A stretch of 32,696 nucleotides of DNA from Candidatus Bathyarchaeota archaeon (GTDB lineage Archaea; Thermoproteota; Bathyarchaeia; Bathyarchaeales; Bathycorpusculaceae): assembly GCA_026014545.1 (NCBI GenBank), contig JAOZIH010000014.1, positions 1 to 32,696 of the forward strand. The letters run 5' to 3'. The notes below the pieces were generated by a model. It saw only the letters and a list, made by a program, of their open reading frames with translations. It did no database searches and had not been told where the DNA came from. Below, piece by piece: positions 4,215-17,376 of this stretch (positions are counted from its first letter, which is position 1; each line of letters begins with the position of its first letter). A program made the position numbers and the translations under genes.

Positions 4215-4859
4215 TTAACGTAGCAGTATTTTCTCGCCAGTCGCGATGTACACAATTGCCTCGCAGACATAGGTTGCATGGTCAGCTATGCGTTCTAGAT
4301 ATCGCATTACCAGCACGCTGGAAATGACGCATTTAGGATCAACATTCACTTTCTCAATTAGCCGATTAAGGTAATCAATAAATATTTTGTCAACTTCCTG
4401 TTCAAGTGTAGAAACAGTTTTAGCCAAGGCTACGTCGTACTTCCTAAGCGAGTCAATGCTTATCCTAACCATTTTCATAACTTTCTCGCTGACTTCTTGA
4501 ATGAAAGAGCGCATCCATGTTTCGCATTCCGTTATCCCGCATAGCTTGTCAGTAACATATGAAATGTCTAGGGCGTATCGGCTGTAGCGGCTGAAATCGT
4601 AGGCTATTTTCATGTAGGATTTTATGGTTCGTAGGTCAGATGCCACAGGCTGAAATCTGGAGATTAGCTCGAATGTTTTATCTTCGATTTCTTCAGCCAT
4701 TGCCATAAGAAGCTCTGACATTTCCTGCACTTGTCGGTGCGCGCTCTCGCCGCTTAGGTAGCTTTGAATTGCCAAGTCGACTGTTTCATAGGTTAATTCG
4801 GCCATTTTGCAAAGTAGCGCGGACTGCTCTTCTAAACCCGCGTCTATTAGTCTGCTCAT
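4215..4859 (-). CDS. phoU: Phosphate transport regulator PhoU
   Basis: The product is 214 residues and all-helical, in two PhoU repeats. Each has the acidic pattern seen in the family (MAEEIEDKTFELISR and LEQEVDKIFIDYLNRL), and the C-terminal ERIADHATYVCEA segment is a family hallmark. PhoU dampens phosphate uptake through the Pst transporter and binds metal through its acidic clusters. It is the last gene of the pst operon, 2 nt after pstB. Its stop faces the stop of the MetE-like gene with a single base between them. Confidence 0.92.
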   Translation of the reverse strand: MSRLIDAGLEEQSALLCKMAELTYETVDLAIQSYLSGESAHRQVQEMSELLMAMAEEIEDKTFELISRFQPVASDLRTIKSYMKIAYDFSRYSRYALDISYVTDKLCGITECETWMRSFIQEVSEKVMKMVRISIDSLRKYDVALAKTVSTLEQEVDKIFIDYLNRLIEKVNVDPKCVISSVLVMRYLERIADHATYVCEAIVYIATGEKILLR

Positions 4860-4861
4860 GC

Positions 4862-5638
4862 TTATCCAAACTCTCCCGTAATGTATTTCTCAGTAAGCGC
4901 GTTCTTGGGATTTTCAAAAATATCTTTGGTTAATCCGTATTCAATAAGTTCGCCGAGGTAAAGAAAAGCGGTATAATCGGAAACCCGTGAGGCTTGCTGC
5001 ATGTTATGCGTCACAATCACGACCGTATATTCCTTAGATAAATCTCTAATTAAGCTTTCAATTTTTGCCGTTGCAATCGGATCCAGCGCAGAACAGGGCT
5101 CATCCATCAAAATAACCTCTGGATTCACCGCTAAAGCGCGGGCAATGCAAAGTCGCTGCTGCTGGCCGCCGGAAAGGCTGGTTCCCGGCTTCTTCAAATC
5201 ATCTTTAACTTCATCCCATAAGCTTGCTTGCTGAAGACATTTCTTTACCACTTCGTCCAGCGCTGGACCTTTTTTGGCGTCCATGAGTTTCAAGCCGGCT
5301 GCCACATTATCATAAATTGACATCGTAGGAAAGGGGTTTGGTTTCTGGAACACCATGCCTACTCTTCTGCGGATTTGCACAGGGTCAACATCGTCATCGT
5401 ATATGTTTTTTCCGTCCAGCAGCACGCGTCCTGAAACCTTTGCGCCTGGCACTAGCTCATGCATTCGGTTTAATGTTCTAATTAGCGTTGATTTACCGCA
5501 GCCGGAAGGGCCGATGATTGCGGTTACAACATTGGCTCTAATTGAGAGGTTAATGTCTCTTAAAGCTTGTTTTTGCCCGAACCATGCGTTCAATTTTTCT
5601 GTTTTTATCTTTTCGCTGTTACCCATGTGCTCATTCAC
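4862..5638 (-). CDS. pstB: Phosphate ABC transporter ATP-binding protein PstB
   Basis: The product is 258 residues. It has Walker [10 protein letters not shown] (43-51), Q-loop region VFQKPNPFP (97-105), ABC signature LSGGQQQR (155-162) and Walker B VILMDEP (175-181), followed by the D-loop SALDP and the switch histidine in VTHNM. The VFQKPNPFP and LSGGQQQR wording is specific to PstB. It energises phosphate import through PstC and PstA. The GTG start at 5638 overlaps the pstA stop (GTGA); an ATG four codons in (5626) is an alternative start. Confidence 0.95.
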
Positions 5639-6465
5639 TTTCTAAATTGTCTTCGACTGGCGATTCTTACGCATACATTTAACGTCAGAACTATTAAAAT
5701 CAGCACTAAAGCTGCGCCCCAAGCCTGCGCCTGCACCGCTACGGACGGCTGCCTCGAATTTAGGAACACCCTTAACGGAAGTGCATCCATAGGTTGATTG
5801 AAGCCCTGAAAGAAGTAAGTGTTTCCCATGATTGTCAGCAAGATCGGCGCGGTTTCACCAGCTATTCTGGCTATCGCAAGAAGTGTACCTGTTACTAAGC
5901 CTTGCCCTGCTGCGGGAAGAACTACGCGAATGATAGTTTTCCAATGGTGCAAGCCCAATGCTAAGGCTGCTTCACGGACTGAGGTGGGTACAAGCTTCAA
6001 GGATTCTTCTGTTGTTCTTGCTACTATGGGAATCATTATAAACGATAGCGCTGCGGCGCCTGCAAGCGGAGAGAAGCTTCCCGTTATGCCTACGACGACT
6101 ATGCTGAAGGCGGTTATGCCCACCACTATGGAAGGAAACTCTGTGAGGATGTCATTGATGGTTCGCATGACTGAAGCGTACTTGTTGCCGCCGAATTCAG
6201 CCAGATAAACGCCTGACATTATACCTATGGGAACTCCGATTAGGCTAGTTAATCCGATTAGAATTAATGTTCCTTGTATAGCTGGGCCTATGCCGCCTTC
6301 TAAGCCGTTGGCTGTTAGGAAATGTAGGCTTAATTGCGGCGCGCCTCGTGCAATCACTTCAAAAATTATACTTGCTAAGGGGATAATCGCGATAATGACA
6401 CAAAGGAGACAAAGAACATATGCGATTTTGTCCTTGAATCTTCTGAAGCGGTAGCTGCTGAGCAT
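5635..6465 (-). CDS. pstA: Phosphate ABC transporter permease PstA
   Basis: The product is 276 residues with about six membrane helices. The inner-membrane permease coupling region is visible ([19 protein letters not shown], then [11 protein letters not shown]), where the EAA loop contacts PstB. It pairs with PstC to form the phosphate channel. The ATG at 6465 directly abuts the pstC stop at 6466, and its own stop overlaps the pstB start by 4 nt, so the two permeases and the ATPase are tightly coupled. Confidence 0.94.
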
Positions 6466-7407
6466 TTACTCCACTGCGCCTCCTTTAATTTTTAAGATGC
6501 GACTAACCATTACGTGGGCGATTATGTTGATGAGGAGACTTATCAGCAGCAGGACTAAGCCGGCGCCCATGTAAGCGGATTTTTCCAGCGGTGTTGGCGC
6601 CTCCAAAAAGCCGTTGGCAATTAGCGAAGGCAATGTTTGTCCAGGCTGGAATAGCGATGTGGGCATGGCTGTTGGGCCGACGGCGTTGCCTATGACCATT
6701 GTTACAGCCATAGTTTCGCCTATTGCGCGGCCTAAACCGAGGATTATGGCGCCTAAAATTCCTGAGCGCCCGTAACTTAGAACCCAATGGCGGATTACTT
6801 CCCATTTTGTTGCGCCGATGCCGTACGCAGCTTCTCTGATGGAATTAGGAACCGCGCTGATTACCTCTCTGGAAACCGAGGCGACCGTGGGGATAATCAT
6901 TATTGCGAGTATTATGCCTGCAGTTAAGAGGTCAAGCCCGAAAGGGGTTCCGCTAAAAATTGGAATACCCCCGAGAGAAGCGCTCAATGGAGTTTCAATG
7001 TAGTTTAGAACCCAGAAGCGGAGGACAAACAGCCCCCAGAGGCCGAATATAACGCTGGGCACAGCGGCCAGCAGTTCGATTAGGTATGAAACGGGCACAC
7101 GGATAACTTTCGGCGCCATTTCCACAAGGAAAATTGCGATTCCTAGGCTTAAGGGGACGCCGATCAAAAGCGCAATGCTGGAAGTAACCAGTGTTCCAAG
7201 CATGTAGGGAAGTACACCAAATGATTCTCGGCCTTCAACAGGATTCCAGTTTATTCCCGTAAAGAATCCTAAGCCAAATCGTTGCAGGACTATTGTCGAG
7301 CCAGTTGACAGAACGTATAGGGTAGCAAATAAAATAACTGCAGCTGAAGCTACTAATACTCCTGCTGCCACTTTGAATATTGCGTCGCCAGTTACGCTTA
7401 TTCGCAT
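6466..7407 (-). CDS. pstC: Phosphate ABC transporter permease PstC
   Basis: The product is 313 residues with six predicted membrane helices. The family-typical segment is GVPLSLGIAIFLVEMAP, and the EAA-type coupling loop is VPNSIREAAYGIGATKWEV; the motif LGRAIGETMAVTMVIGN is close to diagnostic for PstC. The ATG at 7407 is preceded by GGGAGA. Only 69 nt separate it from the end of pstS, and that gap holds an A/T-rich hairpin that could set the ratio of binding protein to permease. Confidence 0.94.
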   Translation of the reverse strand: MRISVTGDAIFKVAAGVLVASAAVILFATLYVLSTGSTIVLQRFGLGFFTGINWNPVEGRESFGVLPYMLGTLVTSSIALLIGVPLSLGIAIFLVEMAPKVIRVPVSYLIELLAAVPSVIFGLWGLFVLRFWVLNYIETPLSASLGGIPIFSGTPFGLDLLTAGIILAIMIIPTVASVSREVISAVPNSIREAAYGIGATKWEVIRHWVLSYGRSGILGAIILGLGRAIGETMAVTMVIGNAVGPTAMPTSLFQPGQTLPSLIANGFLEAPTPLEKSAYMGAGLVLLLISLLINIIAHVMVSRILKIKGGAVE

Positions 7408-7428
7408 TTTATCATTCTCCCGATGATT

Positions 7429-7453
7429 AATAACAAAAAAAGTTTTGGTTATT
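7429..7453 (-). other. A/T-rich hairpin in the pstS-pstC gap
   Basis: On the minus strand the RNA would read AATAAC-CAAAA-CTTT-TTTTG-TTATT, an almost perfect stem. Such a stem between a binding-protein gene and its permease genes often protects the upstream mRNA or attenuates read-through. The function here is inferred, and no run of T follows to make it a classic terminator. Confidence 0.4.
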
Positions 7454-7476
7454 AGGCAACTTACCTAACTCAGCCA

Positions 7477-8757
7477 TTAAGATATTAGCGATTGCCCATT
7501 GAATGTTATTGACCGTATCGTTGCTTCGTTAAGCTGAACCAAGTTAGATGGCAGAGGTGCATATTGCAAGCCTGATGCAAGCTGCTGACCGTCGTGTATA
7601 ACGTACCAGAGAAAGTCTACGAGCTGTCTTGCCTTGTCTAAGGTCATGCCGGGAATAACATTGAGTTCTTTATACACAAGCAAGTATGTTGGTGTCACTA
7701 TCGGGTAAGCTTGACTTCCAGGCGTATTGAGGAGACTTACTCCTGTCCAATCTCCGCTTCCTGCGGGCAGCCCGCTTGTTGGAAGCGATTCAGCAGCTGC
7801 TGTTGTCGAAGCAAGTGAGGGCATCACGAAGTTTCCAGCTGGATTTTGGATTGCTGCCACGGGCATATTGTTCTGTAGAGCATAGGCTAATTCAATGTAG
7901 CCTATGGCATATTGCGTTTGGTTTACTGTGGCTGCGACATTGGCGTTGCCACTGGCGCCAACTGTTACTCCTGGCCATTGGACTGAAGTGCCGCTTCCCA
8001 CTTGGCTATTCCATGTGGGGCTTACGGCGCTTAGGTATTTTGTGAACCAGTTAGTTGTGCCTGAGCTGTCAGATCTGCGAACTTTGACTATGTCCTGGTT
8101 TGGAAGCTGGATTGTCGGGTTCAAAGCAGCAATTGCGGGATCATTCCATTTAGTTATTGTACCCAAGTAGATGTCTGCGATTATTGGACCTGTTAACTTG
8201 AGCCCGCTTGGGACGCCTGGCAGATTATAGGTTATTACTATGGCGCCTATTGTTTCTGGAATATGCAACGCGTTAGGTGCTGCTTCACGTTGAGAAGCGG
8301 TAAGCGCAGCATCCGAGGCTGCGAAGTCCACTGTTTTGCTTGTGAAGGCAGATATGCCAGCGCCGCTGCCGACTCCTTGGTAGTTGATTTGAACGTTTGT
8401 TCTAACCTGCGTAGTATAATGCGCTATTATGGCGTTAAGTAGTGGTTGAGGGAAGGTGGCGCCTGCGCCGTTAAGTGTTGCTGGGCCGGGAGTTGGCGTA
8501 GGTGTTGGGGTTGGTGTTGGGGTAGGTGTAGCTGTGGCTGTTGGTGTAGGAGTGGTCGTAGGCGTCGGTGTAGCTGTGGCTGACGGCGTAGGTGAAGTTT
8601 GTGGCGTTGGTGTAGGTGTTAAAGTCGGCGTCGGTGTTGGAGTTGGGCTAGGCGAAGTAGATGGCTCTGATGCTGGTTGTGTCAAGTACATGTAGCTTAC
8701 TATGCCCATTACTATTATGGCTATGGCGACGATTGCTAAAGTCATTGTTTTATTCAT
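7477..8757 (-). CDS. pstS: Phosphate-binding protein PstS with Pro/Thr-rich linker
   Basis: The product has 426 residues from the ATG at 8757, which is preceded by GGAGAAG at good spacing; a longer reading to 8796 lacks such support. An N-terminal hydrophobic segment (about 6-24) has no lipobox cysteine, so it probably stays as a membrane anchor. Residues about 26-93 are a Pro/Thr/Ala repeat, a likely glycosylated stalk across the cell envelope. The binding domain starts GAGATFPQP (about 97-105) and keeps PstS features such as DFAASDA and [13 protein letters not shown], which line the phosphate site. It captures phosphate for PstCAB. It is the first gene of the operon, facing the AbrB-PhoU regulator gene. 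Confidence 0.94.
8470..8680 (-). repeat. Low-complexity Pro/Thr codon tract inside pstS
   Basis: About 70 codons of near-tandem CCX-ACX repeats encode the stalk of PstS. Third bases vary strongly, which argues for selection on the peptide and not recent slippage, although the length of such tracts usually differs between strains. The opposite strand shows a meaningless Val-Gly open frame. Confidence 0.8.
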
Positions 8758-8797
8758 TATTTCTTCTCCATTGTTTTTCGAATAGGCGATACGCAAC

Positions 8798-8870
8798 TTT
8801 AATTATATATATTCTCCCAATAGTCATTATAGACTATATAGAAACAAGCTTTATCTATAGGAATATTTGT
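8798..8870. promoter_or_regulatory. Divergent pstS / AbrB-PhoU promoter with inverted repeats
   Basis: The 134 nt between the two starts carry an A/T element for each direction: AATTATATATATTC (about 8800-8815) for pstS on the minus strand, and ACTATATAGAAAC (about 8833-8845) for the plus-strand regulator. Inverted repeat TAGTC-ATTATA-GACTA spans 8821-8836, and a nested repeat TATAG-A-CTATA spans 8828-8838, abutting or overlapping the plus-strand TATA box. A protein bound there could block both promoters. The likely ligand, the neighbouring AbrB-PhoU protein, is an inference. Confidence 0.5.
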
Positions 8871-8891
8871 ATTAGTACAGAGGCAACAGGG

Positions 8892-9941
8892 ATGAACAGC
8901 TCTTCGCTGACACATAGGGACGAAACACGAAAATTACAGGTAACAGGCGGATCCACGTACATACTCTCCTTGCCTAAACGGTGGATCACACAAAATCAGC
9001 TTACAAAGGGAAGTCCATTACTGGTGCGCGAGGAAGAGGATGGATCTCTTTCAATTGTTTCCTCAAAATTTAAGAAAACGGAAAAACAAGATGAGGCCTT
9101 AATACGCGTCTCGGCGGTTGACAAACCAGAAGCCGTAACGAGAAAGGCGGTTGCAGCCTATTTAGTGGGTTACAATATTCTTCGCATAAAAGCTCAGGGA
9201 CAACAGCAGTTATCCTCAAAGTTAAGGAACTACCTCAAAAGCTTTGCAAGACATTTCCTCGTTGGCACGGAAATTGTGACAGATACGCCTACAGATCTTG
9301 TTCTGCAGGTTCTGCTTAACTATCCGGAGCTTTCCGTCCAAAGCGCGCTGAGAAGGATGGCGATTATCACCGCGTCAATGCATAGGGACGCCATAGCCGC
9401 GCTTAAAAGCTTGGATTACACCGCAGCAAAAGCAGTGATCGAAACAGACAATGAAGTTGACCGCTTCAACCTCTACATAATCCGTTTGCTTAAGCTAGCT
9501 GTGTCAAAGCCACAAATCTTAAAGGAAATAGGCTTAAAAAATGCAAAACATTGCCTTGGATATCGACTCATAACAAAATCCATTGAACGAACAGCTGATC
9601 ACGCAACAAAAATTGCAGAAAACGTGCTCGCCCTTCAGGAAAAAGTAAGCGACGAATTCATTGAAAGAATAGAAAAAATGAGCGCCACAGCAATTTCCAT
9701 GTTTGAGGATGCCATCGAATCGCTTTTCAAAGGCGACTTCAACTTGGCAGAAACCGTCATTGAGAAGATACCTCAAATCGTTAAACTGGAAAAAGACGCG
9801 GTTCTTGCATCTCATAAATTCGGCGCGGAAGAAATCGCAAATTTGAGCTTGCTAATCGAAAGTGTACGGCGAACAGCCGAGTATGCCAGCGACATCGCGG
9901 AGATAGTGCTTAACTTAAATGTAGAGTCAATAATAGGTTGA
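8892..9941 (+). CDS. AbrB/SpoVT-type DNA-binding domain fused to PhoU-like repeats; probable phosphate regulator
   Basis: The product has 349 residues from the ATG at 8892. The open frame runs further upstream, but that part lies inside the promoter and pstS and has no family resemblance. Residues about 8-60 form a swapped-hairpin AbrB-like domain (RKLQVTGGSTYILSLPKRW, then a SPLLVREEEDGSLSIV strand pair). The rest is helical, with PhoU features: ETDNEVDRFNLYIIRLL, a SIERTADHATKIAENVL segment and a second RRTAEYASDIAEIVLN. Archaeal proteins of this architecture are often annotated as PhoU. The DNA-binding domain and the divergent position next to pstS suggest that it links phosphate status to transcription of the operon, and this window therefore has two PhoU-type proteins for one transporter. 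Confidence 0.82.
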   Translation: MNSSSLTHRDETRKLQVTGGSTYILSLPKRWITQNQLTKGSPLLVREEEDGSLSIVSSKFKKTEKQDEALIRVSAVDKPEAVTRKAVAAYLVGYNILRIKAQGQQQLSSKLRNYLKSFARHFLVGTEIVTDTPTDLVLQVLLNYPELSVQSALRRMAIITASMHRDAIAALKSLDYTAAKAVIETDNEVDRFNLYIIRLLKLAVSKPQILKEIGLKNAKHCLGYRLITKSIERTADHATKIAENVLALQEKVSDEFIERIEKMSATAISMFEDAIESLFKGDFNLAETVIEKIPQIVKLEKDAVLASHKFGAEEIANLSLLIESVRRTAEYASDIAEIVLNLNVESIIG

Positions 9942-15538: not shown

Positions 15539-15555
15539 AACATTGTTTCAATGTT
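15539..15555. promoter_or_regulatory. Inverted repeat before the secreted-protein gene
   Basis: AACATTG-TTT-CAATGTT is a perfect 7-bp inverted repeat abutting the Shine-Dalgarno sequence of the 15527 start. It could be an operator or a leader hairpin that controls ribosome access. Confidence 0.4.
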
Positions 15556-15601
15556 TACGTCTCTTTGTCAAGTGTTTAAAAAAGAAGCCGCACTTTTGAT
15601 G

Positions 15602-15614
15602 TGCACCAAAGGTG
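15602..15614. promoter_or_regulatory. Palindrome copy A (TGCACCAAAGGTG)
   Basis: This 13-nt sequence, built on the inverted repeat CACC-AAA-GGTG, lies in the gap between the membrane-protein and secreted-protein genes. The same 13 nt recur at 16011-16023, and the TGCACC core recurs at 16297-16302. Its placement in each gap of one gene group suggests a binding site for the encoded winged-helix protein. Confidence 0.45.
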
Positions 15615-15618
15615 TATG

Positions 15619-16002
15619 TTAAGACCGCTGTTCGTCGAGTTTTCCAGCAAGTATTTCTTCCTCAAGGTGGAGAAGCAACCCTATTCGGCGCTCCCACTTG
15701 CTGAAGAACCTATATTGAGAGTACATTGCGTATATACTGTAGCCGAGGAATACTCCTGCCACAATCAAGAATACGAAGACGCCGAGGCCAAGTTCCATGC
15801 GTCTAATGATAAGTATTAGCCATAAAACGACTATAAATAAGAATCCTGAAGAAATCAGACCTATAAGCGTGCCGTTTCTGAATTTGCTCCATTCCTTATC
15901 TAACTCGAACAAAAAATCATGCAAAGACTTAATTGGATATGACTTCTCGCTTTTTTCTTCGCTCATTGTCTCTTCCTCACTTTCTTTTACATTGTTGCTC
16001 AT
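15619..16002 (-). CDS. Two-TM membrane hypothetical protein
   Basis: The product is 127 residues. A charged N-terminus (Glu/Lys/Ser-rich, about 1-40) is followed by two membrane helices (about 45-65 and 72-94) and a charged C-terminal helix. The layout, regulator first and short membrane protein second, resembles archaeal units in which a wHTH protein controls its own membrane partner; the function is unknown. The ATG at 16002 has only a close AGGT. An internal ATG at 15966 has GAGG at normal spacing and could be the true start, giving 115 residues. It follows the wHTH gene by 29 nt. Confidence 0.7.
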   Translation of the reverse strand: MSNNVKESEEETMSEEKSEKSYPIKSLHDFLFELDKEWSKFRNGTLIGLISSGFLFIVVLWLILIIRRMELGLGVFVFLIVAGVFLGYSIYAMYSQYRFFSKWERRIGLLLHLEEEILAGKLDEQRS

Positions 16003-16010
16003 ATACCTAA

Positions 16011-16023
16011 TGCACCAAAGGTG
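16011..16023. promoter_or_regulatory. Palindrome copy B (TGCACCAAAGGTG)
   Basis: This is an exact second copy of the 13-nt sequence at 15602-15614, located between the winged-helix gene and the membrane-protein gene, 9 nt before the latter's ATG. Confidence 0.45.
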
Positions 16024-16031
16024 AATTCTTT

Positions 16032-16289
16032 TTACAAGATAGAGGGCAACGATTTGCGCAATTCAATATAGAGCCGCCGCCCTTCCTCTGTCAACGTGCA
16101 ACCTCCTTCCTCATTTTCTTTTACCAATTTCTTCTCAACCAGAAAGGCCAAATGCTTCAAGAAATCATCATAAGAGAGGTTCGTGGATTTTCGCCAAACT
16201 TGTGTACGTGGCTGGGGCTTTGTGTTAAAAAACAAGAATTCAAGGATTTCAAAGCGAATCTGAGCCGCACCTTTTCGCATATGCCCCAT
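16032..16289 (-). CDS. Small winged-helix DNA-binding protein
   Basis: The product is 85 residues, the size of single-domain archaeal wHTH regulators. It starts with a helix (AQIRFEILEFLFF), continues with a putative recognition region (NLSYDDFLKHLAFLVEKKLV) and ends with the wing and last helix (GGCTLTEEGRRLYIELRKSL). This is the arrangement of transcriptional regulators annotated as winged helix or PF14947-like. The ATG at 16289 has a good TATA element upstream (16337-16344). The leader contains GTGCACC, a half copy of the palindrome found in the next two gaps, which would fit autoregulation. Confidence 0.78.
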   Translation of the reverse strand: MGHMRKGAAQIRFEILEFLFFNTKPQPRTQVWRKSTNLSYDDFLKHLAFLVEKKLVKENEEGGCTLTEEGRRLYIELRKSLPSIL

Positions 16290-16295
16290 CTATAA

Positions 16296-16344
16296 GTGCA
16301 CCATTCCAGGATAGCCAAAGTTTGCTGAATGGGGATATATATAA
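16296..16344 (-). promoter_or_regulatory. Promoter and half-site upstream of the winged-helix gene
   Basis: A minus-strand TTATATAT box (16337-16344) predicts a transcription start near 16314 and a 25-nt leader. The element GTGCACC (plus-strand reading, 16296-16302) lies within that leader and shares the TGCACC core with the palindromes at 15602 and 16011. Confidence 0.5.
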
Positions 16345-16470: not shown

Positions 16471-17376
16471 CTATCTTAGTATCATCTTAACGAATTTTTC
16501 CGGATTAAAAGGTTCCAAATCTTTGTACGCCTGCCCCACGCCGATGAACAGGATAGGCTTCTGCGTCACGTATGTGACGCTTAGGGCGGAGCCGCCTTTC
16601 ACGTCCGCATCCACCTTCGTCAGTATCGTTGCGTCTATGCCTATGGCTTTGTGGAATTCTTCAGCCTGCATAACCGCATCGTTGCCAATCAGCGAGTCTA
16701 CCGTCAGTATCGTCAGGTCAGGCGAAACTACGCGCTTCACCTTCGCCAACTCATTCATTAGGTTCTGGTTGGTTTGCATCCGCCCAGCCGTGTCAATCAG
16801 CACGACGTTTACTCCATGCGCCTTGGCGTGGCTTATGGCGTCGTAGGCGACTGCGGCTGGGTCCGCACCGTAGTTGTGCTTTATTATGCGCATGCCCAAG
16901 CGTTTAGCGTGCTCCTCAAGCTGCTCGATGGAGCCAGCGCGGTAGGTGTCGCTGCCCGCCAACACCACAGAGTAGCCTTTCTCACGCAGGAAGAGGGCAA
17001 CTTTGGCGATTGTTGTTGTCTTGCCTGTGCCGTTTATGCCTACGAAAAGCAGCACCAGCGGCTCGCCTTTCTTGCGCTTCTCCTCCGCCTTCTTTAACAG
17101 GTCGATTTTGTTGTTTGTAAGCATAACCTCCAAGAGCACTTGCCGCAGGTTTTCTTCCACGATTTTTTTGCGGTCTTCCATGCGCTTGACCTGCATGCCC
17201 ACCAAGCGCTTTTGCAGTTCCTCGCAGATGCGGTCAGCCACGGGGAAGGCAACGTCATTCTCGGCAAGGGTCATTTTAAAATCGGAAAGGATGGGGCTTA
17301 GGTTTTCGGCCTTAAGCTCGGTTGTAGTGACTTTGGTTACGAGAGTTTTAAAGCCTGACTTAAGCCGGTCAAACAT
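16471..17376 (-). CDS. ftsY: Signal recognition particle receptor FtsY
   Basis: The product is 301 residues: an SRP GTPase NG domain with no long acidic A domain, as in many archaea. GTPase motifs are G1 GINGTGKTTT (about 113-122), DTYRAG (143-148), G3 DTAGR (195-199) and G4 TKVD (253-256), followed by the GVGQAYKDLEPF closing loop. FtsY docks the SRP-ribosome complex at the membrane and hydrolyses GTP with SRP54. The ATG overlaps the end of pfdA by 8 nt. It is last in the ribosome/chaperone operon. Confidence 0.97.
   Translation of the reverse strand: MFDRLKSGFKTLVTKVTTTELKAENLSPILSDFKMTLAENDVAFPVADRICEELQKRLVGMQVKRMEDRKKIVEENLRQVLLEVMLTNNKIDLLKKAEEKRKKGEPLVLLFVGINGTGKTTTIAKVALFLREKGYSVVLAGSDTYRAGSIEQLEEHAKRLGMRIIKHNYGADPAAVAYDAISHAKAHGVNVVLIDTAGRMQTNQNLMNELAKVKRVVSPDLTILTVDSLIGNDAVMQAEEFHKAIGIDATILTKVDADVKGGSALSVTYVTQKPILFIGVGQAYKDLEPFNPEKFVKMILR

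Follow-up and report, generated by a model that had tools for sequence, protein, structure and literature searches.

A winged-helix gene paired with a two-transmembrane partner in Bathyarchaeia: two conserved operator types and a putative role in envelope control

Bathyarchaeia are abundant uncultured archaea in which the regulation of transcription is little understood. The locus described here lies on a 32,696-nucleotide stretch (the window) that is one whole contig of a 1.86-Mb archaeal genome (1,858,296 bases). On the minus strand, an ORF at 16471-17376, which we take to be FtsY-like, is followed by genes for an 85-residue winged-helix (wHTH) protein (P0001, 16032-16289), a membrane protein with two transmembrane (2-TM) segments (P0002, 15619-15966) and a secreted protein (P0003, 15006-15527). 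The 13-nt palindrome TGCACCAAAGGTG occurs exactly at 15602-15614 and at 16011-16023, one copy in each intergenic gap. Is this repeat an operator, and if so, which protein binds it and which genes does it control? The original prediction, made from the window, held that the wHTH protein regulates its own unit, with the other two proteins as effectors of a possibly signal-responsive envelope system. Elsewhere in the window, a phosphate-uptake-like cluster was recognized by eye at 4215-9941 (PhoU-like, PstB-, PstA-, PstC- and PstS-like ORFs), including a second PhoU-like ORF at 8661-9941.

The repeat is real. Both copies are exact, and the genome-wide count that had been proposed as a check returned no others (two forward and zero reverse matches, and zero for a reversed-pattern control). 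When up to two mismatches were allowed, the window still contained just the same two copies. This loose count by itself proves nothing, because at least two such matches were present in 23 of 100 shuffled windows. Apart from these copies, the exact 13-mers that recur within 600 nt in the window are limited to four overlapping ones, all from a single pair (8525/8567).

The small wHTH protein is a real HTH_45 protein, as P0001 matched this family (PF14947) at E 3.5e-9 with 37 bits, above the Pfam gathering score of 25.5. Relatives scored 45.5 bits (L243) and 31 bits (L240) against the same family, and a profile search at E up to 0.01 found no relative of solved structure. Mean column identity was 81% for the wHTH protein (14 loci) and lower, at 48%, for the TM protein (15 loci). 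Among 60 relatives, counting the genome of the window itself, 14 had a homologue of the TM protein, and a profile search detected it in 55 of the 256 class genomes; these 55 include weak or partial matches in G184 (E 1.2e-5, within a 334-residue frame) and G081 (2.6e-7) and a fragment in G053. We examined 54 loci, all except G184, and found the TM gene in every one but G053. In 49 of these 53 loci, a wHTH gene directly adjoins the TM gene upstream on the same strand. It was missing upstream in L130, L153, L159 and L161, in L130 at least at a contig end. The distribution of the pair is patchy, since G001, an 85% complete genome of the same genus, had no TM match. At two loci (L052 and L053, in G056 and G047) the wHTH gene carries in-frame TAG codons and the TM gene is frameshifted, with the operator palindrome intact; in G104, of the same genus, the frames are intact. 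Recoding of the TAG codons is disfavoured, and decay of the pair is likelier, because the frameshift affects the adjoining TM gene as well.

The coding region of the membrane protein lies within an ORF at 15619-16002. The alignment supports a start later than that of the ORF, most likely the ATG at 15966 (codon 13). With this start, the first copy of the palindrome on the minus strand ends 49 nt ahead of the beginning of the TM gene, in a promoter region. A structural model of low to medium confidence (mean pLDDT 69, pTM 0.39) consists of two long helices. In the alignment, the invariant aromatic and charged residues fall mainly on two segments that flank the membrane helices; the conserved residues include YP/H/F/EW/F and FF/W/R. 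These segments are presumably cytosolic and could hold the wHTH protein there.

The gap between the wHTH and TM genes contains operator type 1 (15999-16025, minus strand), in which the palindrome at 16011-16023 sits just upstream of the TATA-like box of the membrane-protein gene (TATAT, 16001-16005). The palindrome is kept in relatives, which had been put forward as a further check: CAYY-NNN-[GC]RTG was found in 48 of the 49 wHTH-to-TM gaps of the class, preceded by T-N in every one, and the 49th gap (L154) retains the right arm. Shuffled gaps gave a mean of 0.028 matches and a maximum of 1 in 49 (500 mononucleotide shuffle rounds), and reversed gaps gave none. We conclude that the palindrome is no local coincidence. 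Across 39 non-redundant gaps, information content was confined to the palindrome, the next few bases and the TATA-like box, with near-zero values at the flanking positions as far as the stretch ahead of the start codon. Some positions were imposed by the search expression. This does not apply to the invariant T that stands two bases ahead of CA, nor to the A, T and TATA-like positions that follow the palindrome. Conservation is weaker in the left arm, where two positions hold C or T, than in the right arm, so the strict symmetry of the palindrome is imperfect. In 24 of 48 sites, the AT-richest 8-mer begins 11 bp past the centre of the palindrome (range 9-14). Because the patterns for both operator types were drawn up from the same loci, the fair test of each is its rarity elsewhere. 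The type 1 pattern, which in the window matches 15999-16023, had 45 matches in 45 of the 256 genomes, and its reversed control had 2. It was present in 40 of the 55 genomes that have the TM gene, in all 40 beside that gene by coordinates, and in 5 of the 201 genomes without it; the remaining 15 genomes with the TM gene had no strict match.

The leader of the wHTH gene itself gave a different result. The palindrome core TGCACC lies there at 16297-16302, and it had been pointed out together with the idea that the wHTH protein regulates its own unit. We rejected autoregulation at this position, as the palindrome was present in 0 of 49 wHTH leaders. GGTG occurs within the last 18 nt of 32 of the 49 leaders and GGTGCA in 12 of them, at the usual ribosome-binding place; all of these leader counts are approximate, since some leaders were cut at the profile match and not at a proven start codon. 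Read on the minus strand, the GGTGCA of the window looks like a Shine-Dalgarno site, which is likelier than an operator.

Operator type 2 (15589-15616, minus strand; pattern matched at 15589-15614) is longer than type 1 and stands ahead of varying envelope genes. It consists of the palindrome, here at 15602-15614, a conserved RTGMG block and a TATA-like box, which for the secreted-protein gene is TTTTTTAAA at 15575-15583. In 14 of 30 aligned sites the AT-richest 8-mer begins 26 bp past the palindrome centre (range 20-28), a palindrome-to-box distance about 15 bp greater than in type 1, and the RTGMG block is a possible third half-site. The pattern CAYYNNNGGTGNAYANNNNNNRTGMG had 40 matches in 39 of the 256 genomes, and its reversed control had 3. 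Genomes with the TM gene accounted for 36 of these matches (36 of 55 genomes), and those without it for 4, in 3 of 201 genomes (G182, G215 and G231). The G215 site, which precedes a small signal-peptide protein resembling that of G213, may be real. Among the 19 genomes with the TM gene that had no strict type 2 match, G014 carries a variant of the site. Of the 36 type 2 sites, 28 lie directly downstream of the TM gene and 8 lie away from the pair (G046, G039, G141, G143, G146, G147, G220 and G221), six on other contigs, which are fragments, one about 46 kb off and one about 3 kb off. A trans-acting regulator is likely, because in these 8 genomes the type 2 site is not beside the pair. G141 has two candidate targets, since besides its strict match there is another site, whose spacer is shorter by one base, on the contig that carries the pair. 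A large regulon was considered and rejected: a looser pattern, CAYYWDTGGTGCAY, had 35 matches in 60 genomes compared with 22 for the control. Fifteen of the 35 were at the pair, one was the G039:C28 site and the other 19 were at background level; the match G000:C39:28245, for instance, falls inside an ORF.

We took the first gene after each type 2 site in the 36 genomes as its target, reading the ORFs and running Pfam on examples. The target was a set of ABC exporter genes (a LolD-type ATPase with a MacB/FtsX permease) in 13 genomes, a P0003-like secreted protein in 7, another small protein with a signal-like N terminus in 5, and an exported protein of about 480 residues in 3, followed in G033 by a MacB-like permease recognized by eye. 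In 4 more, a TM-anchored protein precedes a CDP-alcohol phosphatidyltransferase (Pfam in L149 only). No clear ORF was called after the site in G134, G104, G221 and G229. All 32 readable first genes look like envelope or export genes. At five loci (L143, L149, L151, L157 and L226), operator 2 is followed by a TM-anchored protein, a CDP-alcohol phosphatidyltransferase and a radical-SAM-like gene, a lipid-related set that differs from the other targets (Pfam for the first two genes of L149 only).

In the lineage of the window, the gene behind the type 2 site is the one for P0003. Residues 49-171 of this protein are predicted to form an eight-stranded beta domain, with pLDDT mostly above 90. At an E limit of 0.001, Foldseek found no match that would name the fold. 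A second structural comparison gave OmpA-like, avidin-like and designed beta barrels, at Z 8.7-13.3 among the 50 matches listed; the fold class looks clear in the model, and the listed barrels are unrelated proteins, none a shown relative. Homologues of P0003 in two genomes with no TM match (G036 and G044) lack the palindrome. The proposed three-gene order is conserved for the wHTH and TM genes, while the full trio occurs in some lineages only and its third gene is interchangeable. A second inverted repeat in the window, AACATTG-TTT-CAATGTT (AACATTGTTTCAATGTT, 15539-15555), had also been singled out. It is present, but four relatives with the same trio of genes (L058, L060, L061 and L062) do not retain it, and it has no visible part in the system. 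Of the proposed envelope system, the HTH_45 identity of the wHTH protein, the conserved order of the wHTH and TM genes, the palindrome and the envelope or secreted nature of the readable genes behind the second site are supported; autoregulation through the leader and a role for the AACATTG repeat are not supported.

The wHTH protein is the natural candidate for the palindrome binder, because the protein and its presumed site share the same genomes and are each conserved, and because the site is also found apart from the pair. We consider it probable that the two genes form a dyad in which the wHTH protein binds both operator types and controls its 2-TM partner and an envelope operon, and in which this partner is the likely membrane-side sensor. 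In the mechanism that we infer from sequence and gene arrangement, the wHTH protein would bind CAYY-NNN-GGTG, probably as a dimer, in two promoter settings. The type 1 site is near the TATA-like box of the 2-TM gene, a box whose first base lies about 11 bp past the palindrome centre, and this closeness suggests feedback on the partner: occupancy of the site would set the partner's level in a feedback loop. In the envelope operon, the type 2 palindrome lies about 15 bp further upstream, with the extra RTGMG before the box. A position upstream of the box suggests activation, and the wHTH protein would most likely activate the operon from there. The 2-TM protein would be the partner that tells the wHTH protein the state of the envelope.

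The palindromes could instead be RNA hairpins, acting as 3' ends or stability elements just past the stop codons of the wHTH and TM genes. Type 1 does sit 5-17 nt past the wHTH stop, type 2 in the window begins 7 nt from where the TM stop codon starts, and G-U pairing would survive most of the C-to-T changes in the left arm. However, the stem is just 4 bp with no T run after it, and a right-arm change to A in L146 and L160 breaks the pairing. Strict type 2 sites lie up to 66 nt past the stop, or not beside the pair at all in the 8 genomes above, and for both operator types the spacing to a TATA-like box is almost constant, all of which makes hairpins quite improbable. Somewhat easier to entertain, though still unlikely, is that another factor binds the palindrome and that the wHTH protein is a regulated neighbour or a chromatin protein of the Sso10a kind. 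The NCBIfam Sso10a family matched the wHTH protein at E 1.2e-7, and the leader of its own gene lacks the palindrome. Against this, the NF053610 score of 31.7 bits is below the cut-off of 60, and the sites occur in the same genomes as the pair, each genome having roughly one site of either type. A chance match, which the shuffled windows would allow for the loose 13-mer, is already refuted by the class-wide conservation of type 1 over its shuffle mean and by the presence of type 2 in 36 of 55 TM genomes, and we give it practically no weight.

The dyad as we propose it resembles two described kinds of regulator. HAAS-PadR dyads combine a standalone wHTH gene with an alpha-helical membrane-linked partner, partners that include FtsX-like TM domains, and have been proposed as a two-component alternative for membrane stress (PMC11237479). 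Here too, a standalone wHTH gene stands beside a membrane-linked helical partner, in the 49 of 53 loci. The wHTH protein is of the HTH_45 family, however, with PadR absent among the Pfam matches of P0001 at E up to 1, and P0002 has no DUF1700, DUF1048 or DUF1129 at the same threshold. In the available portion of that report (PMC11237479), neither the conserved operators nor the promoter geometry found here is described for HAAS-PadR dyads. In Sulfolobus acidocaldarius, ArnR/ArnR1 has an HTH and two TM segments and controls surface structures, and the ArnR boxes are short inverted repeats upstream of BRE/TATA, within -43 to -84 (PMC6396743). With its HTH, two TM segments and inverted repeats upstream of TATA, the present system would be comparable to a split ArnR. 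ArnR combines all parts, HAMP and sensor domains included, in a single protein, and its box is TCGAC-N5-GTCGA (PMC6396743), whereas here separate ORFs of 85 and about 115 residues lack such domains and the site is CAYY-NNN-GGTG. By analogy, the dyad would work like HAAS-PadR or a split ArnR, yet it fails defining features of both. EarA is likewise an archaeal wHTH protein that binds upstream of the core promoter, and changes in the BRE bypass it; it controls the archaellum, with no membrane partner mentioned in the available text (PMC13286277). MacB/LolD-type ABC exporters are a target here and not a regulator, and in the window their slot holds the secreted beta protein. The arrangement found here, in which a conserved inverted repeat keeps an almost constant spacing to a TATA-like box, is the one expected for an archaeal transcription factor with its own operator. 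Among the papers listed from open-licence literature, which lacks most subscription papers, none showed an operator or regulon from Bathyarchaeia, or this pairing of genes.

The locus offers a specific candidate factor, two operator types whose promoter geometry is almost constant and, in each genome, a small set of putative targets, and it presents an operator that stays constant while its target operon is exchanged. The dyad looks like a compact cell-surface switch of uncultured Bathyarchaeia. More tentatively, and with rather less confidence than in the dyad itself, we suggest that it may be a membrane-stress relay apart from two-component systems, in which a 2-TM helical hairpin would hold or modify, at the membrane, a wHTH protein that has no recognised ligand domain. 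Across the class, the pair and its operators would have stayed the same while the target operon changed again and again, between MacB/LolD exporters, secreted beta proteins and phospholipid-head-group enzymes. The pair may also reach into a further family of the phylum, where the external loop is larger.

A sample of 398 genomes from the phylum gave 33 TM matches, 28 in class members and 5 outside the class. One of the five, G465 (family f67), has a wHTH gene (profile E 1.3e-25) and a TM gene with TTCACCATTAGTGAA ahead of TTTAAA. The other four are from family f29, possibly ammonia oxidisers (L239-L242). Their TM similarity is weak (E 2.6e-5 to 8.2e-5), and their wHTH-containing frames of 118-136 residues did not match the wHTH profile significantly (E 0.55 or worse); the one tested, in L240, matched HTH_45 at 2.6e-7. 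The adjoining 2-TM protein has a long external loop between its helices, and there is no visible palindrome. The divergent neighbour of the f29 pair is an ABC ATPase in L239 and a small exported protein in L240-L242, with a PepSY domain in the one tested (L240).
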